From the IMG/VR virus record IMGVR_UViG_3300013285_000056, positions 1-28,606 of that record: a stretch of DNA of 28,606 nucleotides; one strand, written 5' to 3'. Shown here piece after piece: positions 2,045-17,143 of the stretch (its first letter is position 1; every line of letters starts with the position of its first letter). Below the pieces are notes generated by a model. That model had not been told where the DNA came from, did no database searches, and saw only the letters and a list, made by a program, of their open reading frames with translations. The stretch comes from a virus. A program made the position numbers and the translations under genes.

Positions 2045-2051
2045 TATTTAT
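2045..2051 (-). promoter_or_regulatory. T4-type late promoter box (ATAAATA)
   Basis: On the minus strand the sequence reads TAATAAATAC, matching seven of eight positions of the T4 late consensus TATAAATA. It overlaps the stop codon of the DpdA-like gene and lies about 65 bases upstream of the GTG of the secreted protein, so a leader of about 60 bases is expected. T4 late boxes are read by host RNA polymerase carrying gp55, with gp33 and the gp45 clamp. Confidence 0.5.
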
Positions 2052-3502
2052 TACTCAAACAGTACATTAAACTGCGTACTTGCATTCACAGTTTTCTTAC
2101 CGGTATATCCACGCTGCCCTACGATGCTGATCCAGAACTTACTGTGTTCCTCAATGAGATCCAAACTTTTTTGATTAACTGCATTGGCGACAATCTCATC
2201 AACAATGTTACGAAATTTAGTAATAGTATGTGTCTCACGGATCAACATGCCTGGACTTAATCCCAGGTCATACTGTTCATTTGCTGTTAATACTGCATTG
2301 ATATGCATCCAAACATTATGGGCCATCTGCAGAGCATAGCTAAAGCTATCCCACGATGTCTTACCTTCTTTACCAATCATATTAAGAGCACCAGGAGCAT
2401 ATGTGCAAACATCGTTAACCTGCAGATGCTTGCTAATATGACTGTCCATAAAGTTTTTAATGATCAGATCATCTCTTGCAACATCGCCATATAGTCTAGT
2501 ATCAGTAGCGTATTTCTTATTGTCAATGCCTGCTTCCATACTATAAGTCCACTTGCCGCCATCTTCCATCCTTAGCTGATCATACACAAGTCCTTTAGCA
2601 TTAGCAAGGAATGGACTTGCACAGTCAAAGCTAATAGTAAAGTCTTCATTATGATGCTTACGAACAGCACGTTGTAAATCAGTTAGTAAACAAGCCCACT
2701 CGAGCTTACTAGTTCCTAAGAAGTGCATCCAATCATGTGTGCCTTTTTCAAGTAGACCATCACGAATCATCTGCACTATACGACGCAGCACAAGATGAAT
2801 ATCACACATATTCTGCCCACCCATGGCCCAACCATTAAAGTGTGTGCCAGGATATAGTTTAGGATCGCAGAAGTCCTTCATCTGCTCATACCAATCATCC
2901 GCTTCAGTATGGTTCTCGCCCTGTAGCACATTAAGGAACTTGCAACGACCTGTGCGATGCTTCATCCAATATTCGTTATTGATACGTGTGCCTTTTACAG
3001 CTTCCGCATAAGTGCTAATGCCAGTGGCACGAGCACCAGCAGGGCTACGAGCAACCCAAGCGGGTATATCAAGAACCATACCGTAATCCATATAAGCATC
3101 CATCCAACGCAAAACACCATCACGCTTAGAATGCGCACGAGGGCAATTAGGATCTCGCCAATCGCCTTCCCAAACTCCCTTACCAATTTGGAATCCACCT
3201 GAATCTCCTAGTACAAAGCTGCTGGGGTCTCTTAATCGGACCATTTCTTCTTTTTCTTCAGGACGTACATCTAGAATAGCATGTCCTGCAGAATAAAGAC
3301 ACCACGGATAATAAAAGTAGCTGTCTTTTGGATCTAAAAAGTTAAGTCCTGCAATACCATTTTGCATCGAAGATGGTATGCGACTGGCTTGTATTTTCTT
3401 ACCATACTTACAGATTTGAAAACTGTAAAAGCTACTTAGTGCTGGCAAAAACACTGCTTGATCTGACTTGCGGCGCAATGCCATATTATCCTGTGGTATC
3501 AT
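2051..3502 (-). CDS. DpdA-like DNA guanine transglycosylase (TGT superfamily)
   Basis: A 483-residue protein of the tRNA-guanine transglycosylase superfamily. In order it has GDSGGFQ at 99-105 (the TGT Asp-Ser-Gly-Gly-Phe-Gln base-binding motif), VLDIPAW around Asp145, NVLQG at 191-195, GWAMGG at 224-229 (bacterial GLAVGE), FLGTS at 261-265, and FDCASPF with Asp293 aligned to the catalytic nucleophile of FDCVLPT. The usual CxCx2C zinc site is not visible: only Cys366 remains near the expected place, with His395 in MAHNVWMH. Known phage members (DpdA) swap guanine in DNA for 7-deazaguanines such as preQ0, which blocks host restriction; cellular members act on tRNA. Choosing DNA over tRNA is inference. 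Start: the frame is open to 3571, but ATG 3502 has AAGGA five bases before it and avoids overlap with the next gene. No preQ0 synthesis gene is in the window. Confidence 0.82.
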   Translation of the reverse strand: MIPQDNMALRRKSDQAVFLPALSSFYSFQICKYGKKIQASRIPSSMQNGIAGLNFLDPKDSYFYYPWCLYSAGHAILDVRPEEKEEMVRLRDPSSFVLGDSGGFQIGKGVWEGDWRDPNCPRAHSKRDGVLRWMDAYMDYGMVLDIPAWVARSPAGARATGISTYAEAVKGTRINNEYWMKHRTGRCKFLNVLQGENHTEADDWYEQMKDFCDPKLYPGTHFNGWAMGGQNMCDIHLVLRRIVQMIRDGLLEKGTHDWMHFLGTSKLEWACLLTDLQRAVRKHHNEDFTISFDCASPFLANAKGLVYDQLRMEDGGKWTYSMEAGIDNKKYATDTRLYGDVARDDLIIKNFMDSHISKHLQVNDVCTYAPGALNMIGKEGKTSWDSFSYALQMAHNVWMHINAVLTANEQYDLGLSPGMLIRETHTITKFRNIVDEIVANAVNQKSLDLIEEHSKFWISIVGQRGYTGKKTVNASTQFNVLFE

Positions 3503-3510
3503 TTTGTTCC

Positions 3511-3864
3511 TTACAAAAATTTCTGAACTAATATAATTGAGCTTAACCAAACCCATATAGAATGGAACCATATAAGTGTTGGAAGTCCTTTCTTTTGACT
3601 AACCCAAATTAGGAACATACTTGTACACAAATTTGGCCAAAACAAGTAAAACGGACTGTAGTGAAAAATTAAACCTGACACTATTATAACAGATTTAGTT
3701 GCAAGACTTAAAAATTCAACAATGTTGACGAGGCTCCAATAAGGACGGGTTAACCATAAACCAACACACTCACCAACATTCTTAAATCCAATAACACTAA
3801 AAGCCAGTGTTACTATTACTGCTGCAATGCAGCTACCTATGAGTATACTATTCAATAATTCCAT
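3511..3864 (-). CDS. Small multi-pass membrane protein, unknown
   Basis: A 117-residue hydrophobic protein with about three to four membrane segments: residues 5-27 (start ILIGSCIAAVIVTLAF), about 45-67 (VEFLSLATKSVIIVSGLIF), 70-88 and 95-115. The ATG at 3864 is preceded by a strong GAAGGAG ribosome site. It lies eight bases before the start of the DpdA-like gene and twelve bases after the DUF2061 gene, so the three probably share a transcript. I see no catalytic motif. It might affect the host envelope or superinfection, but nothing in the sequence decides this. Confidence 0.7.
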   Translation of the reverse strand: MELLNSILIGSCIAAVIVTLAFSVIGFKNVGECVGLWLTRPYWSLVNIVEFLSLATKSVIIVSGLIFHYSPFYLFWPNLCTSMFLIWVSQKKGLPTLIWFHSIWVWLSSIILVQKFL

Positions 3865-9202: not shown

Positions 9203-9556
9203 TTATACATGTCTAGGTTTGCCTTCTCTTGACTTCTTATATTGTATAGCATAATCGTCTGGAGTGCAATTAAATTTTTTTACAAACGCTTTATGTAGAT
9301 CATTGGGTTCAACTCGAAATTTCTCACAAATAGTTTGCATCAACATGTTGATATGATCATAATCAGTATTTGGTATATGCTTTAGATTGTGCTTTAGTTG
9401 TTCAACTGCACCCATCATAGTTTGTTTTTGATTTTCCTCAACAGACTTATCATAACGAAAACGTGCGCCCATAAGCCCGCGAGCGCCTGCGCTAATTGGA
9501 TATTTGCTCTGAACGCCAACTGACATTAAAGCTTCCATTATTTCTTTAAGACGCAT
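9203..9556 (-). CDS. Unknown protein with capsid-targeting-type N-terminus
   Basis: A 117-residue protein that begins MRLKEIMEALMS. The I-M-E|A segment (residues 6-9) fits the (I/L)-x-E cleavage consensus of the T4 prohead protease gp21, and the whole N-terminus resembles the capsid-targeting sequence of T4 internal proteins (MKTYQEFIAEA). The remainder has a Gly/Arg-rich patch (AGARGLMGARFRYD, about 23-36) and a helical C-terminal part with a PNDLHKAFVKKFNCTPDDYA motif. Its ATG overlaps the stop of the next gene as TAATG. Function beyond probable head localisation is unknown. Confidence 0.6.
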   Translation of the reverse strand: MRLKEIMEALMSVGVQSKYPISAGARGLMGARFRYDKSVEENQKQTMMGAVEQLKHNLKHIPNTDYDHINMLMQTICEKFRVEPNDLHKAFVKKFNCTPDDYAIQYKKSREGKPRHV

Positions 9557-9747
9557 TATACTTTTCCATTTGATCTAAGTTTAGGTGGTCCATCATTACT
9601 TATTGTAAATCCCAACTTAGCAGCTTGCTTTTTATCTTCGCCTGGGCCAACATCAACAGTTAGTGCATTGGACCAACGTGGGTCTTTAGCTTCTTCATCA
9701 TCCTTAGGTATATGCCCGCTTGATTCAGTTATCTCACTTACTTTCAT
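9556..9747 (-). CDS. Small conserved protein with capsid-targeting-type N-terminus
   Basis: A 63-residue protein that begins MKVSEITESSGH; I-T-E|S (6-9) fits the prohead-protease consensus. The frame is open to another ATG at 9759, but the ATG at 9747 overlaps the upstream stop as TAATG, and only this start gives the same N-terminal pattern as its neighbours, so I prefer it. The body contains DPRWSNALTVDVGPGEDKKQ and AAKLGFTISNDGPPKL, a combination I associate with small proteins of marine T4-like phages without known function. Confidence 0.6.
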   Translation of the reverse strand: MKVSEITESSGHIPKDDEEAKDPRWSNALTVDVGPGEDKKQAAKLGFTISNDGPPKLRSNGKV

Positions 9748-10679
9748 TAGCAATGCCATTTACGCAGTGATTTATTGATACGACTATTAGGATCTCGCTT
9801 GGTCTTTGCACCAGTTCTATGTTTCTTCATACCCTTCATACGGGCGCAGAAGCTCTTGCGACGTTTAGAAGCTTTACTGCCTTTCTTTAGCTTACTGGGC
9901 TTAGTAGTAACTGCGGTCTTTAGTTTACTTCCAGGATGTTCTCTGCGATAACTGTTTACACCCTTCTGATTTAATCCACCATTCTTGTTCTTACCTGAGC
10001 TCTTCTGCCAAGCAGCAGCTTCAAATAGTTCATCGTCTTCTACAGTTTCAAAGTGTTCCCAAATTTCTTCAGAATCAACTCCATAGTGTAGTGCTAGTTC
10101 TTCGACCATCTCTTCAATCATGTCAAACTGTTCGTCTGGCGTTATGTAATCTTCATCAAGATCTTCGTCTTCTTCGATGCTCTCGTTGGGCACACAGTTG
10201 CGTACTTGACCGCCATTCTTGCCCTTCTTAGTGCCTTCTGCATGTTTACCAGGCCAGCATTTGGTGTAACCGTTGCTGTCTTTTTGACCTTTTTGAATTT
10301 CGTTAAGATTACCATGTGCTTCACACATGCCGCAATCTTCGCAGACCATTTCCATTTCAATACTTTCATTATGCTTACGCTTGCCGGCACAATGAGCCTT
10401 TTGACTGAATCCCTTAGGATGCGAACAGTTTATGCTAGATTTATATTTTTGACTCCAAGTTTCCTCCACACTTTCGTTAGGCACACAGTTATTAACTCTT
10501 ATGCCGCCCTTCATCTTAGTGCCTTCTTTATGCTTTCCTGTCCAGCACTTGGCATCAAGTCTCTGTTTAGCTTCGTCTGTTTCTTCTTTTGGCTTCTTGC
10601 CGTGCTTTTTCATATTAATAGCAATAGCTGCTTGCTGTGCTGCATTTGCTGCTTCTGAAATAATATCTTTAACTTTCAT
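9747..10679 (-). CDS. Cys-rich repeat protein with DUF6321-like C-terminus, probable internal head protein
   Basis: A 310-residue basic, Cys-rich protein. It begins MKVKDIISEA, a capsid-targeting-type sequence with I-S-E|A at 7-10. Residues 42-69 and 139-167 are copies of one unit, DxKCWxGKHxEGTK..GG..RxNCVPNES; a diverged third unit at 83-106 is NCSHPKGF...HCAGKRKHNES. Between them is CEDCGMCEAH (113-122), a possible metal site. An acidic helical segment covers 168-220. The last 90 residues (AAAWQKSSGKNKNGGLNQKG to the end INKSLRKWHC) match the DUF6321-type domain of marine T4-like phages, ending in RRKSFCARMKGMKKH. L-F-E|A at 218-221 sits exactly before this domain, and L-N-E and I-E-E sites occur at 125-127 and 168-170, so proteolysis by the prohead protease into fragments is plausible. 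A basic DNA-associated core protein is the likely role (inference). Confidence 0.72.
   Translation of the reverse strand: MKVKDIISEAANAAQQAAIAINMKKHGKKPKEETDEAKQRLDAKCWTGKHKEGTKMKGGIRVNNCVPNESVEETWSQKYKSSINCSHPKGFSQKAHCAGKRKHNESIEMEMVCEDCGMCEAHGNLNEIQKGQKDSNGYTKCWPGKHAEGTKKGKNGGQVRNCVPNESIEEDEDLDEDYITPDEQFDMIEEMVEELALHYGVDSEEIWEHFETVEDDELFEAAAWQKSSGKNKNGGLNQKGVNSYRREHPGSKLKTAVTTKPSKLKKGSKASKRRKSFCARMKGMKKHRTGAKTKRDPNSRINKSLRKWHC
10179..10265 (-). repeat. Coding repeat, second copy of Cys-rich unit
   Basis: Encodes residues 139-167 of the 310-residue protein (TKCWPGKHAEGTKKGKNGGQ and the following VRNCVPNES). The first copy lies at 10473-10556 (residues 42-69). The two differ by substitutions and a short insertion, so they are old diverged duplicates. 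Confidence 0.7.
10473..10556 (-). repeat. Coding repeat, first copy of Cys-rich unit
   Basis: Encodes residues 42-69 of the 310-residue protein (AKCWTGKHKEGTKMKGGIRV and the following NNCVPNES). It pairs with the copy at 10179-10265. Each unit holds two Cys about 20 residues apart and ends in VPNES followed by a V/I-E-E tripeptide. Confidence 0.7.
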
Positions 10680-13133: not shown

Positions 13134-15998
13134 TCATTTTACAACTCCTGACTTAGCAATACTCGTAAGTATTTGTGCTACTTGAGGAAATGCCGAGTCG
13201 TCGTATTTGATGCCGATACCACCTGCTGCACGCCATTTACTAATATTAACACCATAATCATCAACCAATATATTAGGAGCACCATCTTCCAATGCACGGT
13301 CTGCTTTGCTATGTGTTAATACTATTTCGACAGGAGGCATATCTGAGAAATGTTTTTTAATCCAAGCTATTTTACCTGGCTTACTGCGTTCGTCACCTGC
13401 TAGTGGTGTTGAACAAATTCTATATTCGCCATAATTTTCAATTACTGTTTTAACTAATGATCTTGCATTAGGTAGCATAGGTAAGTCAATCCAAAATGTT
13501 GGCTGATCTCTTACTAATTGTAAAGATTCTTCAGCATTATTGATATCTTTATAATGATCAACACCAGCTAATCTCGACCATTCACTAAAGAAGTCAGCGA
13601 GCACTCCATCCATGTCTAGATAGACACGAGGCTTTGTACTTTCATCTGTTGCATCCTCGTAAATTGAATAGCGTCTTTTCAACCCTTGAACTTTAAATCC
13701 TGCCATTCTTCCAGCGAGCAGTCTTGGATGAACAGTTTTAATCATATAAATTGTATTACCTGCAGAATCTTCATTTTTTGCTAATGCAATACCAAAACCA
13801 TTCTTAGGTTCTCTTGGAGGACCATTTTCACCTTTGAGTACAAAATCTGTGTTATTTAAGTTATTAATATCTTTACCATGTTGTCTAACTGCTTTTTCAA
13901 TAATCTCATAAATTTCCTCAATATCAACACTACGCTCGCCTTTTCTATCAAGACGCTCGATAGCATGATGTGAGATGAAGACTGGCGCACCCATGATGTC
14001 AATGCCTTCTAATTCCTCACCTCTGCTATAGTCAGTTGTTTCGTTTAAACTTTCATCTAATTCATAAAATTTACTGTCGATTTCCTTTTTTAGATCGGCA
14101 ATAGCTTCATCCTCGCTGCGGCCTTTGGCAATTAATGTCTTTAACGCACCGTCAATGATAGTTTTTGGCTTCTTAGGCTTCTTTGCTTCATTAACTCCAC
14201 GCTTATACATAGAGATACTACTAAGTGGAATAACACCGTGATACTCCAAAGTATTACCTTCGTTATCTTGGACATTTTGATCCATCTTTAATAGTGAAGG
14301 ATTTAAACCAGCAGTTGCGATTTTCAATATGACAATATCATCTAGCCATTCGTCTGGAACAGTTTCGCTTGCTTCAGCATAACTTTCCGCAACATTTGGA
14401 TCAGTAGCAAGATATACTACGCCATGTATGCTGTCTTCCCAACGCTTACGCTCACTACCTTTACCGCCTAAACCTGTCTTTTTAATAGAACGCAATAGCG
14501 CACGATATGTGGCATGATATAATACAGGAGGAATGTTTGTTTCTTCTATTTCTTCGTTGGCTCGCTTCTTGCCGCGACGCATGTTCAGCTGCCAACGTGC
14601 TAATTGTCCTTTACGACCTTCAGCATGACTGGCTTTTTCTAGTTCTGCCACTGTGGCTTTCTTAGGGATACCATGACGCTGACTGTCTCCAGGACGACCT
14701 GGCCCTTTTCCATCAGCGAAATTTTCACCTATCTTTTTTTTTAGATCATCAGTATGTTGAGCAAATCTGCCATCGCTAAATCCACCTTGGCCCAATGCAC
14801 TCTTCATATAGCTGCCTAGGAAGTCTGCTTTTGATTGATCATTAGGTCGAGCATTCATACGATCCATTGCTGCTGATACTGGCTCACCTGGAACAGCTAC
14901 AGCGTCGTCATCTTCTTCCTCAACCTTAGCAAGTCTGGTATAGTAATCTAACTTCTCGCCAATATGATCCATTGCTATTTCAGTGGCAACTTCGATATCA
15001 TTTGTATGTTCAAATTCTATTTTAACGCCGCGATTAATTTGACGATGAACTTCTTCTGGTGTAATTATGTATCTCTTGGCAAGTTCTCTTACGCTAGGTG
15101 TGCGTTTATTAAGTTCTTCGCTTTCGTCAGTTGCTCCTCTGCCAATGCCAATGGCAGTACTTGCCGCTGTTGCAGCAGCTTTTCCAGGAATTAAATTAGT
15201 TGCAAGTTGAGCAGCAGGTAGTAGAGCTTTGCCATACTCTCCCTTGTTGATAGCAGAACCAATCTTGCCTATATCTCCTATGGGAGTATAATTTTTAAGA
15301 GCATTTGATATAGGTGTATCTTTTTGATTTTCTGGACGCATCATGAATGCACGGTGTTCATCTTCATCAGCATCTTCATTGATACTTTCCAACTGCATAC
15401 CTTTACGTACTAACGGAAACAACTGTTTTTCAACAGCAGTTAATAATTTAAGATTAGTAACTTTTCCACCTAATGTGTTACGAGCAAATGATTCTGGATC
15501 ATTATTAACAATACTCTCACGAGACTTTGTAGCACTAGTAAGACGAGGGCTAATAGCAAAGTCTAGTTTCTCAAAGTAGAAACCTTTACCCATCTTAACA
15601 GATTCTGGATTATTACGTCCATGTTCGTTGCCACTTTTAATCATTGTGGCATATGATTCCATATCATCCTCGCCAGCAACAAATGTAGCTTGTCTAAATC
15701 CCTGCTTGTACAACCATGTTGCAGCAATCAGTGGAGTTTTAATTGAAGCATCCTCAACTAAATGTCCTGTTGTTTCAGGAAATAAAGCTTTCACCCAGTA
15801 ACACTTTTGATCGTATGTAAGTGGATTTTTTGCAGGCTCAACTTTACTGCTTAGAAATAGATACCAGTATGCAACTTCCTGTTTGGCAACTGTTTGTAGT
15901 GTCTTAATAACGCCGCCGTGACCATAATGAGGAGGGTTCATCCTGCCGAAGGTAAACACAACTTTCTTAATGGTTTGATCTATTTCATCTAAGCGCAT
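13134..15998 (-). CDS. Multidomain head-packaged-type polyprotein: nucleotidyltransferase, ART-like, BECR-like, HAD phosphatase
   Basis: A 954-residue protein with separate modules. Residues 10-200 are a cytidylyltransferase-like nucleotidyltransferase: GRMNPPHYGHG with HYGH at 24-27, and SATKSRESI at 155-163. Residues 300-360 resemble DUF5661 (ELAKRYIITPEEVHRQINRG ... FEHTNDIEVATEIAMDHIGE). Residues 493-600 look like an ADP-ribosyltransferase or KptA fold (LYHAT, then GVVYLATDPNVAESYA and EYHGVIPLSSI). Residues 670-760 resemble DUF4258/BECR nucleases (ISHHAIERLDRKGERSVDIE). Residues 790-954 are a HAD 5'(3')-deoxyribonucleotidase-like domain: LDMDGVLADFF (Asp795, Asp797), CSTPL (862-866), Lys898 and VDD (912-914). 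The N-terminus MRLDEIDQT resembles a capsid-targeting sequence. Prohead-protease-type sites lie in linkers: INE|D 206, IEE|T 484, LNE|T 651, IYE|D 779. T4 packages its ADP-ribosyltransferase Alt in a similar way. Nucleotidyltransferase and HAD calls are firm; the ART and BECR calls are tentative. Confidence 0.75.
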   Translation of the reverse strand: MRLDEIDQTIKKVVFTFGRMNPPHYGHGGVIKTLQTVAKQEVAYWYLFLSSKVEPAKNPLTYDQKCYWVKALFPETTGHLVEDASIKTPLIAATWLYKQGFRQATFVAGEDDMESYATMIKSGNEHGRNNPESVKMGKGFYFEKLDFAISPRLTSATKSRESIVNNDPESFARNTLGGKVTNLKLLTAVEKQLFPLVRKGMQLESINEDADEDEHRAFMMRPENQKDTPISNALKNYTPIGDIGKIGSAINKGEYGKALLPAAQLATNLIPGKAAATAASTAIGIGRGATDESEELNKRTPSVRELAKRYIITPEEVHRQINRGVKIEFEHTNDIEVATEIAMDHIGEKLDYYTRLAKVEEEDDDAVAVPGEPVSAAMDRMNARPNDQSKADFLGSYMKSALGQGGFSDGRFAQHTDDLKKKIGENFADGKGPGRPGDSQRHGIPKKATVAELEKASHAEGRKGQLARWQLNMRRGKKRANEEIEETNIPPVLYHATYRALLRSIKKTGLGGKGSERKRWEDSIHGVVYLATDPNVAESYAEASETVPDEWLDDIVILKIATAGLNPSLLKMDQNVQDNEGNTLEYHGVIPLSSISMYKRGVNEAKKPKKPKTIIDGALKTLIAKGRSEDEAIADLKKEIDSKFYELDESLNETTDYSRGEELEGIDIMGAPVFISHHAIERLDRKGERSVDIEEIYEIIEKAVRQHGKDINNLNNTDFVLKGENGPPREPKNGFGIALAKNEDSAGNTIYMIKTVHPRLLAGRMAGFKVQGLKRRYSIYEDATDESTKPRVYLDMDGVLADFFSEWSRLAGVDHYKDINNAEESLQLVRDQPTFWIDLPMLPNARSLVKTVIENYGEYRICSTPLAGDERSKPGKIAWIKKHFSDMPPVEIVLTHSKADRALEDGAPNILVDDYGVNISKWRAAGGIGIKYDDSAFPQVAQILTSIAKSGVVK

Positions 15999-16027: not shown

Positions 16028-17143
16028 TTAGTGTTCGAAGTTGGCCGCAGAGAATCTTTGACGATCGACTGCTTTATAAGGGCCTGTTCCTGTATGAACC
16101 ATATAACCTTCCTGCCCGGAAACACCTTGCACACTTGCTTGCATAGGAGCAGGATGTTTATCTAGTAGACCAACAATATGATCTTTAACACGCATAATGC
16201 CTATGAATGTTTGGCATAATACTTTATATCCACCTGCATTAGATTGCAGATATACAGCAATATTCTGTTGCATATTTGGACTTACTTTTGCGCCTGCCAT
16301 CCATTCAACAAAGTCAGAACCAAAGTTGCTGAAGTCGCGAGCTCTAACTTTTCCATTAACATACTTTTGAAATATTGTTGGGAAACTACCAATCTTAGCA
16401 ACAGATAATGCAGATTTGTCTAATAGTTTATCTAATGGAGCAGCGTTGCTGTTAATAAATGTTTCAATTGACTTTAGATCAGGTGGAATTTTGACACGAG
16501 GAGGACTAGTAAATTGATCAGTAATAACAAGCAGAGGCCCATTTGTGTTTATACCTCTTAAACTACTAACATGCTTACCTGGTTGTCCGGGAGCAGCAAA
16601 GTAACTATGTGCTACAATTCCGCTCGTGCTCTTAGCAATCTGTTGTCCCAGTGGTTCGCTAACAGGAACAGTATATACAACAGTATTAGGTTGAAACACA
16701 AATGCATTATTTTGTATTGCGGGACGCTGGCTGTAGAGTAAATCGCCAAACATCCATCCTTTGAACCCACTGCTTAGACTTGCCTCAAATTGAGGCCAAA
16801 GTGCTGTCATCATTGCTGATAGTTCTTCTCTGCCGCCGCCTTTACGCTCGGCGTATATTTGTGCTAGTTCTTGTGGACTGTGAGTAATAATCCCTTTAGC
16901 AAACATATGCTTGTCCATCATAGCAAAACCTTGCTCATCTCTACCCCAAACAATAGCAGGTTTGCCATCTGGCTTAATAGAGATAGTCTCAGGATTTGTA
17001 GCCATTTGCTTCAAAGCATTAATAGCTAGTTTTGCACCAGTTGAACCTAAGGCAATAACCTCATCTTCAAAGTGTGGAACTCTAGCTTTCTCTAAGCTAT
17101 AATTTGCCTCTTCAGCTTCAAATAGGAATTCTTGTGCTCGCAT
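16028..17143 (-). CDS. Ligase-fold (nucleotidyltransferase) protein with capsid-targeting N-terminus, DUF6267-like
   Basis: A 371-residue protein. It begins MRAQEFLFEAEEAN: L-F-E|A (7-10) fits the prohead-protease consensus, close to the T4 internal-protein leader. The core resembles DNA/RNA ligases: motif I SIKPDGKPAI with Lys57-x-Asp59-Gly60, then FGDLLY at 133-138 (motif III/IIIa region), EGYMVH at 345-350 (motif IV) and YKAVDRQRF at 356-364 with Lys357 (motif V). Cyanophage relatives of the DUF6267 type carry KWDGAPA at motif I. Ligases of this fold form a Lys-AMP intermediate; whether this one seals nucleic acid is unknown, and no OB-fold is evident. The start is fixed by the leader sequence and by a perfect late box immediately before it; there is no Shine-Dalgarno sequence. 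Confidence 0.65.
   Translation of the reverse strand: MRAQEFLFEAEEANYSLEKARVPHFEDEVIALGSTGAKLAINALKQMATNPETISIKPDGKPAIVWGRDEQGFAMMDKHMFAKGIITHSPQELAQIYAERKGGGREELSAMMTALWPQFEASLSSGFKGWMFGDLLYSQRPAIQNNAFVFQPNTVVYTVPVSEPLGQQIAKSTSGIVAHSYFAAPGQPGKHVSSLRGINTNGPLLVITDQFTSPPRVKIPPDLKSIETFINSNAAPLDKLLDKSALSVAKIGSFPTIFQKYVNGKVRARDFSNFGSDFVEWMAGAKVSPNMQQNIAVYLQSNAGGYKVLCQTFIGIMRVKDHIVGLLDKHPAPMQASVQGVSGQEGYMVHTGTGPYKAVDRQRFSAANFEH

Follow-up and report, generated by a model that had tools for sequence, protein, structure and literature searches.

A modular phage protein with prohead-protease-type sites at its module borders: a putative head-packaged polyprotein of T4-related phages

Introduction

In phage T4, the prohead protease gp21 cuts after L/I-x-E, and its substrates in the mature virion lose N-terminal propeptides (PMC9026906). 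Packaged accessory proteins such as T4 IPI-IPIII and Alt carry a short N-terminal leader that ends in [L/I]-x-E and is cut after the Glu; for IPI, an anti-restriction role is described (PMC9026906). Here, we analyse P0001, a 954-amino-acid open reading frame on the minus strand (13134..15998) of IMG/VR virus record IMGVR_UViG_3300013285_000056, a linear record of 28,606 bases that was studied whole and is termed the window. Relatives of P0001 bear leaders like those of the T4 proteins; however, in T4 the proteins of the mature head are trimmed of propeptides (Alt at both ends) but are left as one unit (PMC9026906), whereas the sites described below separate up to ~8 modules per chain. An original prediction had held that P0001 is packaged intact and cut into separate enzymes within the head, at (I/L)-x-E tripeptides lying between its domains.

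The nearest described kind are the polyvalent proteins of Iyer et al. (2017), which are likewise multi-domain, mosaic, and predicted to be packaged or injected, with ADP-ribosyltransferase (ART), ParB-like, and RelA/SpoT domains (PMC5512222). Like these, P0001 combines a number of effector-type domains that are unrelated to each other, and its relatives are mosaics. The two differ in that protease domains acting in cis (MPTase, some assemblin-like) were proposed for polyvalent proteins, ~36% of the described set having a zincin-like MPTase (PMC5512222), whereas the chains studied here have prohead-protease-type sites in their linkers. Pfam scans returned no peptidase family for P0001 or for nine relatives, some truncated by contig ends; a peptidase domain is not obligatory for the polyvalent family, but a protease acting in trans would thus be needed here. 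The inner body and ejection proteins of SPN3US and phiKZ also undergo extensive cutting after Glu by a gp21 relative, though in SPN3US 13 of 14 mapped sites remove N-terminal propeptides, the remaining one is C-terminal, and P3 is Ala (PMC10052503, PMC5694885). Lastly, NMNAT/cytidylyltransferase proteins equivalent to the N-terminal module of P0001 are reported in purified virions of T4-like cyanophages; that of S-CREM2 (gp154) differs in having 286 amino acids, with no internal processing described in the available text (PMC10665884, PMC9602691).

Among open-licence PMC full texts, polyvalent proteins and prohead protease were found together in PMC5512222 alone, the second term there being in the reference list, while capsid targeting sequence and polyprotein co-occurred in a phage context in one paper only, for a displayed vaccine antigen. 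Among the titles and abstract beginnings listed by searches of that collection, none described such chains, which is not proof of novelty.

Results

Module composition of P0001

The features of P0001 are as follows.

13134..15998, minus strand: P0001, modular protein of 954 amino acids (open reading frame and translation)
15975..15998, minus strand: N-terminal leader MRLDEIDQ, with Gln at P1 in P0001 (translation and alignment of relatives)
15375..15998, minus strand: residues 1-208, leader and NadD/NMNAT-like nucleotidyltransferase (phrog_3041, CTP_transf_like, Foldseek)
15123..15374, minus strand: residues 209-292, spacer module, present in L011 too
14724..15122, minus strand: residues 293-425, DUF5661 and linker (PF18905, E 1.4e-7, residues 305-362)
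14541..14723, minus strand: residues 426-486, NFADGKGPGRPGDSQRHGIPK module, in several close relatives; L102 and L104 have related stretches in different contexts
14187..14540, minus strand: residues 487-604, ART domain with Tpt1/KptA-like fold (AlphaFold and Foldseek)
14040..14186, minus strand: residues 605-653, KKPKKPKTIIDGALKTLIAKGRSEDEAI helical module, matched in L002 at 97.6% identity over 41 amino acids, beside different neighbours
13656..14039, minus strand: residues 654-781, module of no confirmed family (originally termed BECR-like)
13134..13655, minus strand: residues 782-954 and stop, HAD module, 5'(3')-deoxyribonucleotidase, NT5C (PF06941 and phrog_2643)

The nucleotidyltransferase matched phrog_3041 (cytidyltransferase) in PHROGs with E 8e-30 and CTP_transf_like in Pfam below the cut-off; in a whole-protein AlphaFold model its best Foldseek match was NadD 6kh2 (E 2.5e-3, prob 1.00). 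For the HAD module, PF06941 (E 8.3e-8, residues 792-928) exceeded the Pfam cut-off and PHROGs returned phrog_2643 (5'-3' deoxyribonucleotidase, E 4.6e-19). The Pfam scan also placed DUF5661 above the cut-off, with weak cytidylyltransferase and KptA signals. When the ART module was folded alone (AlphaFold, nine sequences; mean pLDDT 77.5), Foldseek matched it to Tpt1/KptA (E 4.5e-4, prob 1.00). The ART and HAD labels of the original prediction are therefore upheld, through the Tpt1/KptA match and the PF06941 hit respectively. Its BECR label for residues 654-781 is unconfirmed, as this module has no Pfam match and no match among phage isolates; together with the HAD module it is 80% identical to L002. 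In the whole-protein model, it was mainly the nucleotidyltransferase and HAD modules that were well predicted, and residues 654-781 were modelled at low confidence.

Tripeptides at module borders

The tripeptides originally listed stand at the residues claimed for them, namely INE/D at 206-209, IEE/T at 484-487, VNE/A at 602-605, LNE/T at 651-654, and IYE/D at 779-782, where the slash marks the proposed cut. The borders of P0001 are occupied as follows.

15375..15383, minus strand: INE/D, residues 206-208, same site in L011
15123..15131, minus strand: degenerate border TDE/S, residues 290-292; ADE/S in L011, and IEE, VDE, VSE, VEE, VGE, or IKE before S in other relatives
14724..14732, minus strand: IGE/N, residues 423-425, missing from the original list
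14541..14549, minus strand: IEE/T, residues 484-486
14187..14195, minus strand: VNE/A, residues 602-604
14040..14048, minus strand: LNE/T, residues 651-653
13656..13664, minus strand: IYE/D, residues 779-781

The 12 [IL]xE tripeptides of P0001 match the 11.3 expected from shuffling (p 0.46), so their number proves nothing and only their placement can inform. Those beyond the original list are LDE 3, LVE 80, IGE 346, IGE 423, LDE 647, IEE 693, IYE 696, and IIE 699, among which IGE/N (423-426) sits on a module border. Homologue alignments set the seven module starts at residues 209, 293, 427, 488, 606, 655, and 789. An [ILV]xE ends at most 10 residues upstream of six of these (random-placement mean 1.34, p 0.00045), and a strict [IL]xE lies ahead of five (random mean 0.81, p 0.0004); these p values are indicative because the starts were hand-set with the sites already known, and seams defined by BLAST offer a fairer test. 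Six border sites fall within AlphaFold segments of pLDDT <50 (205-244, 398-441, 476-614, 641-665, and 761-786). This lends weak support, the alignment being shallow and 427 of the 954 residues scoring below 50.

Homologues as mosaics

Searches from P0001 yielded two relatives in the first scan and 80 loci in a profile scan. In all eight complete close relatives (the window, L002, L003, and L013-L017), the nucleotidyltransferase comes first and the HAD module last; between these, the sets of modules differ, their order differs in part, and identity within a module reaches 97.6%. Seams across these proteins read INE, IEE, VDE, VGE, VTE, VSE, VEE, LTE, LGE, IYE, MYE, VME, IRE, etc., the linkers are frequently S-[VIL]-x-E, and the residue after the Glu is mostly A, S, T, D, E, or V. 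The original prediction, which had proposed a homologue alignment as a check on site conservation, is supported in part: the tripeptides mark module borders across many phages. The T4 gp21 consensus (I/L)-x-E is present at these borders, but V is the most frequent P3 residue internally and the consensus must be widened to [ILV]xE.

Further modules were seen in the same chains. In L015 (8001-10754), an HD_4 hydrolase module immediately follows VDE/D, while L016 and L017 contain ParB_N-like modules. L021 (7977-16952), L046 (240-7925), L031, L036, and L044 encode very long modular chains of 1506 to 2992 amino acids, some truncated by contig ends, with a putative amidoligase module.

Enrichment of the mark at seams

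Sharp seams were called from BLAST only, as a stretch of at least 30 residues at ≥50% identity whose flank is unrelated, and a mark at a seam start was an [ILVM]xE within -8 to +6. The final close set comprised ten modular proteins with 45 seams, and the other set 109 seams from uninspected loci, reduced from 117 by removal of eight from previously read loci; earlier close sets held 47 seams including two holin-like proteins (L018, L020) or 46 including one. Marks occurred at 34 of 45 starts in the close relatives (background 21%) and at 69 of 109 in the other proteins (background 24%). When residues were shuffled within the seam windows, 34/45 compared with a mean of 17.7 and 71/109 with 32.1, with neither reached in 2000 shuffles; the same (0/2000) held in both sets for strict [IL].E. 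The first run had given 36/47 and 72/115 at starts, and at seam ends 23/38 for close relatives (background 21%) and 85/170 for others (27%). Seam starts were not enriched in [ILVM].D,.K, or.Q. In the uninspected set, neither [AGST].E (38 vs 42.6 in shuffles) nor the reversed motif (34 vs 31.9; 697/2000) was raised, although the latter showed mild enrichment among the close relatives (26 vs 18.4; 18/2000). Collapsed to module families, the mark was present in most members of 25 of 39 (p 1e-7), and in 17 of the 27 families with no close-set member (p 2e-5). The border sites are hence both above chance and conserved at borders, as for a polyprotein processed by a prohead protease.

Two explanations without any protein processing bear on these counts. 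The marks could have arisen by chance in Glu-rich linkers, to which the chance-level [IL]xE total of P0001 and the raised, though lesser, level of other Glu motifs at seams would correspond; however, composition-preserving shuffles never attained the observed count, rendering this very improbable. We accept chance for the total number in P0001 and reject it for site placement. Alternatively, the common linkers might be seams of DNA recombination rather than protein signals, as their frequent S-[VIL]-x-E form could indicate. Yet the codons for Ser, P3, and Glu at seams are mixed and near the usage of their own genes, which argues that the mark is maintained at the protein level, and we give the recombination explanation hardly any credence.

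Leaders and standalone modules

Several modules occur both internally and as standalone proteins behind a leader. The leader cut point equals the internal seam for the TLKKVKG module (standalone MRAHEFITE/TLKKVKG in L036; internal NLEE/TLKKVKG and SLEE/TLKKVKG), the SSGHIP module (KVSEITE/SSGHIP at 9556-9759 of the window; SVEE/SSGHIP in L003), the AANxAQQAA module (KDIISE/AANAAQQ at 9747-10679 of the window; STQE/AANPAQQ in L003, with Thr at P3), the SATAGAT module (REITMKE/SATAGAT and MRAKEFISE/TASMGAT; SVAE/SASAGAT and SLGE/SATAGAT), and the S-G...IDKTQKA module (MKILDIITE/SGG..IDKTQKA in L059; ALRE/SG..IDKTQKA in L051). For ART, the cut point lies near the seam (standalone SINE/T in Lak-B5, LTE/S in L101, and IYE/N in L106). 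These pairs were selected as clear readings and yield no count; the listing they come from also held pairs that are not fusions (holin-like, ClpB-like, and N-terminal extensions). C48C1 (L005) was excluded as a leader pair, its AEYQGKKV unit following an inner LTE/A rather than the leader. What can be read directly from the sequences is that the modules form a mosaic, that most seams bear a mark resembling a cut site, and that in several modules the seam agrees with the leader cut point.

Such pairs would also exist if leader-bearing head-protein genes had fused repeatedly and their products were packaged without internal cutting, each seam tripeptide being the remnant of a lost leader, and in T4 and SPN3US it is propeptide removal that has precedent for mature proteins. 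However, the seams examined retain the Glu and usually a hydrophobic P3, not the upstream leader sequence, and the same modules stand beside differing neighbours. The HAD mark in particular is kept while P3, P2, and distance change (SIYE, SMYE, SVME, SLIRE, SIME). We thus regard fusion without cutting as unlikely and favour processing at the seams.

In a test of ART made after the idea had formed, the site was present in six of seven new distinct contexts (L101, L102, L103, L104, L106, and L108, with the shared context of L106 and L107 counted once; p 0.001 against a 24% background), and in 9/10 when the window, L017, and Lak-B5 are included. For HAD, it was found in 10 of 14 distinct contexts, in one of which (L022) only inside a leader; a leader is lacking from the HAD proteins of phiXF1, L046, and Melnitz (gp119), and the DUF5661 protein of Cr30 begins FLNA, not FLNE.

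Relatives whose leader has a cleavable-type [L/I]-x-E are L002 (LNE/A), L015 and L016 (LEE/A), L020 (LEE/E), and L003 and L017 (LHE/E), while the leaders of L013, L014, L018, and L019 read LDDE/P or LDNE/P. The leader pattern with Glu matched 54 of 841 proteins; with Glu replaced by S, A, G, or K, it still matched 26, 15, 15, and 12, which means that the 54 include chance matches. Separately, two genes of the Prevotella phage Lak-B5 (L097; 3908-4405 and 7633-8205) encode different proteins whose N-termini share K-K-x-LYE-x-I-x-KS-x-SKSVKKSINE although their bodies are unrelated; this stretch is a candidate leader for head targeting in Lak megaphages.

Packaging, protease, and capsid

Packaging of P0001 is backed indirectly, by leaders and by the published virion proteomics of its homologues. 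For S-CREM2, the virion proteins reported include ORF154, a cytidylyltransferase, with 3 unique peptides and ORF160 with 7 (PMC10665884), and NMNAT is reported in S-SCSM1 virions (PMC9602691). S-CREM2 gp154 begins MKNFSSFLTE/A; the modular gp160 has several [ILV]xE, with LEE/K and ISE/G immediately preceding the recurring NCWPGY and GKKDACYH modules. A GFTGAAAP stretch is common to the N-terminal parts of virion-detected gp160 and the capsid protein gp145 of this phage (L010).

Two jumbo-phage records (G003, G004) encode a 2561-residue modular protein along with a gp21-type protease, a capsid protein, and a scaffold. The scaffold of these records is enriched in I- and L-x-E and weakly in V, that of S-CREM2 being without V enrichment, and the jumbo-phage capsid protein reads KYLAE/SASAGAT near its N-terminus. 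A short module that starts S-A-[TS]-x-GATS or nearly so occurs both standalone and internally (L062 12297-12536, L081 5654-5866, L052, L059, and L085); in the jumbo-phage capsid protein (L089), a similar sequence follows the likely maturation site.

Other genes in the window

Several other genes of the window have leaders or leader-like starts.

16028..17143, minus strand: upstream neighbour, DUF6267 (PF19782, E 1.1e-32), leader MRAQEFLFE/A
9747..10679, minus strand: DUF6321 modular protein, leader MKVKDIISE/AANAAQQ; module internal in L003 after STQE
9556..9759, minus strand: standalone module of 67 amino acids, leader KVSEITE/SSGHIPKDD; module internal in L003 after SVEE
9203..9556, minus strand: small protein, leader-like start MRLKEIMEA

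The T4 late promoter TATAAATA had one match versus 3.05 expected by chance, which is no evidence for its use. A further observation concerns 2051-3571 of the window and L007 2695-4251 and 12474-15605: a conserved protein of 506/518 amino acids with no family match has in its window copy a DSGGFQ motif, typical of TGT/DpdA. In a relative (G001), QueE-, QueD-, and GTP-cyclohydrolase-like genes share the record with this protein, which suggests 7-deazaguanine DNA modification. At 3-1979, the start of a 659-amino-acid frame cut by the window edge resembles a signal peptide, and neither Pfam nor PHROGs gave a match for it.

Discussion

The best reading of these data, and one that we consider probable, is that of packaged modular proteins cut in trans at their [ILV]xE seams by the prohead protease. 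P0001 would be the modular polyprotein of a T4-related phage, with an N-terminal leader, similar to the T4 capsid targeting sequence, bringing it whole to the prohead core, where the gp21-type prohead protease of the phage itself would cut the linkers in trans after [I/L/V]-x-Glu. Cleavage would release a nucleotidyltransferase, a DUF5661 unit, a small FADGKG unit, a KptA-like ADP-ribosyltransferase, a helical unit, a domain of no assigned family, and a deoxyribonucleotidase; these pieces would remain with the DNA and be delivered at infection. Modules would shuttle between standalone genes (with leader and cut site) and internal positions (with the cut site only), making a single gene a changeable cassette. 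As an evolutionary rule, the original prediction holds well beyond P0001; its biochemical step, we infer.

A number of observations pull in the other direction. The leader of P0001 itself ends IDQ instead of IDE, as in L011 and L012, with Gln where a cleavable leader of the T4 type has Glu. In T4 IPIII, processing is blocked but targeting persists when residue 10, at the end of the leader, is Asp (PMC9026906); by this precedent, P0001 might still be targeted to the head despite the Gln, while keeping its leader. The DUF5661 start of P0001, preceded by TDE/S, is without the mark, as are ART in L105, four of the 14 HAD contexts, and 14 of the 39 module families. Other Glu motifs are also enriched at seam starts, though less strongly than [ILVM].E (z 9.7 close, 10.1 others): [AGST].E with z 4.3 and [KRDENQ].E with z 3.6 in the close set, and [KRDENQ].E with z 4.2 in the others. 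At close-set seam ends, [AGST].E equals [ILVM].E, both at z 6.0. This enrichment of other Glu-ending motifs arises because the seams are Glu-rich. With respect to packaging, the S-CREM2 authors allow for carry-over in such virion detections (PMC10665884), and among the 52 coding sequences examined there (gp148-gp199, of 221 annotated features), a leader did not predict virion detection (1/7 vs 2/45, p 0.36). Packaging of P0001, cleavage at its seams, injection, and the activities of its modules are what we infer from sequence.

The identity of the protease warrants the same scrutiny. Of 35 records searched, which are fragments, G003 and G004 alone gave a gp21-type protease (PF03420) match; it was absent from the hits in the window, the close relatives, and 20 further records, an absence that proves little, and record G001 yielded no protease or capsid gene. 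Internal seams favour V at P3 (43 V, 28 L, and 24 I among 231 Glu positions), whereas leaders have L or I in 43 of 54 and V in 2; as V is also at most weakly enriched in the scaffolds, V sites may be cut poorly. Both the V-rich P3, unlike that of leaders, and the lack of a gp21 gene found for the lineage of the window would be compatible with seams cut by some other protease or at another time, e.g., after injection. However, the T4 prohead protease follows the rule of a Glu at P1 with a hydrophobic residue at P3 (PMC9026906), and the leaders of relatives and the capsid protein bear the same type of site. Cutting by another protease is in our judgement improbable, and the prohead protease remains our preferred candidate.

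Beyond P0001, we lean slightly towards a broader proposal, in which aquatic T4-related phages, including jumbo phages, would maintain a polyprotein economy in the head: dozens of exchangeable effector modules, either alone behind a leader or in chains of up to ~3000 residues, would enter the head and, before injection, be freed in trans by the protease that matures the capsid. If true, many different effectors could be loaded with a single targeting leader and a protease already needed for the capsid, in the manner of RNA-virus polyproteins. This may also account for the recurrence of DUF5661 and of the KCWxGY unit in varying company. The rule that a module starts at the residue after [ILV]xE would then find and delimit unknown proteins packaged in the heads of aquatic phages, and mass spectrometry of existing isolates could test which proteins are injected by T4-related phages.

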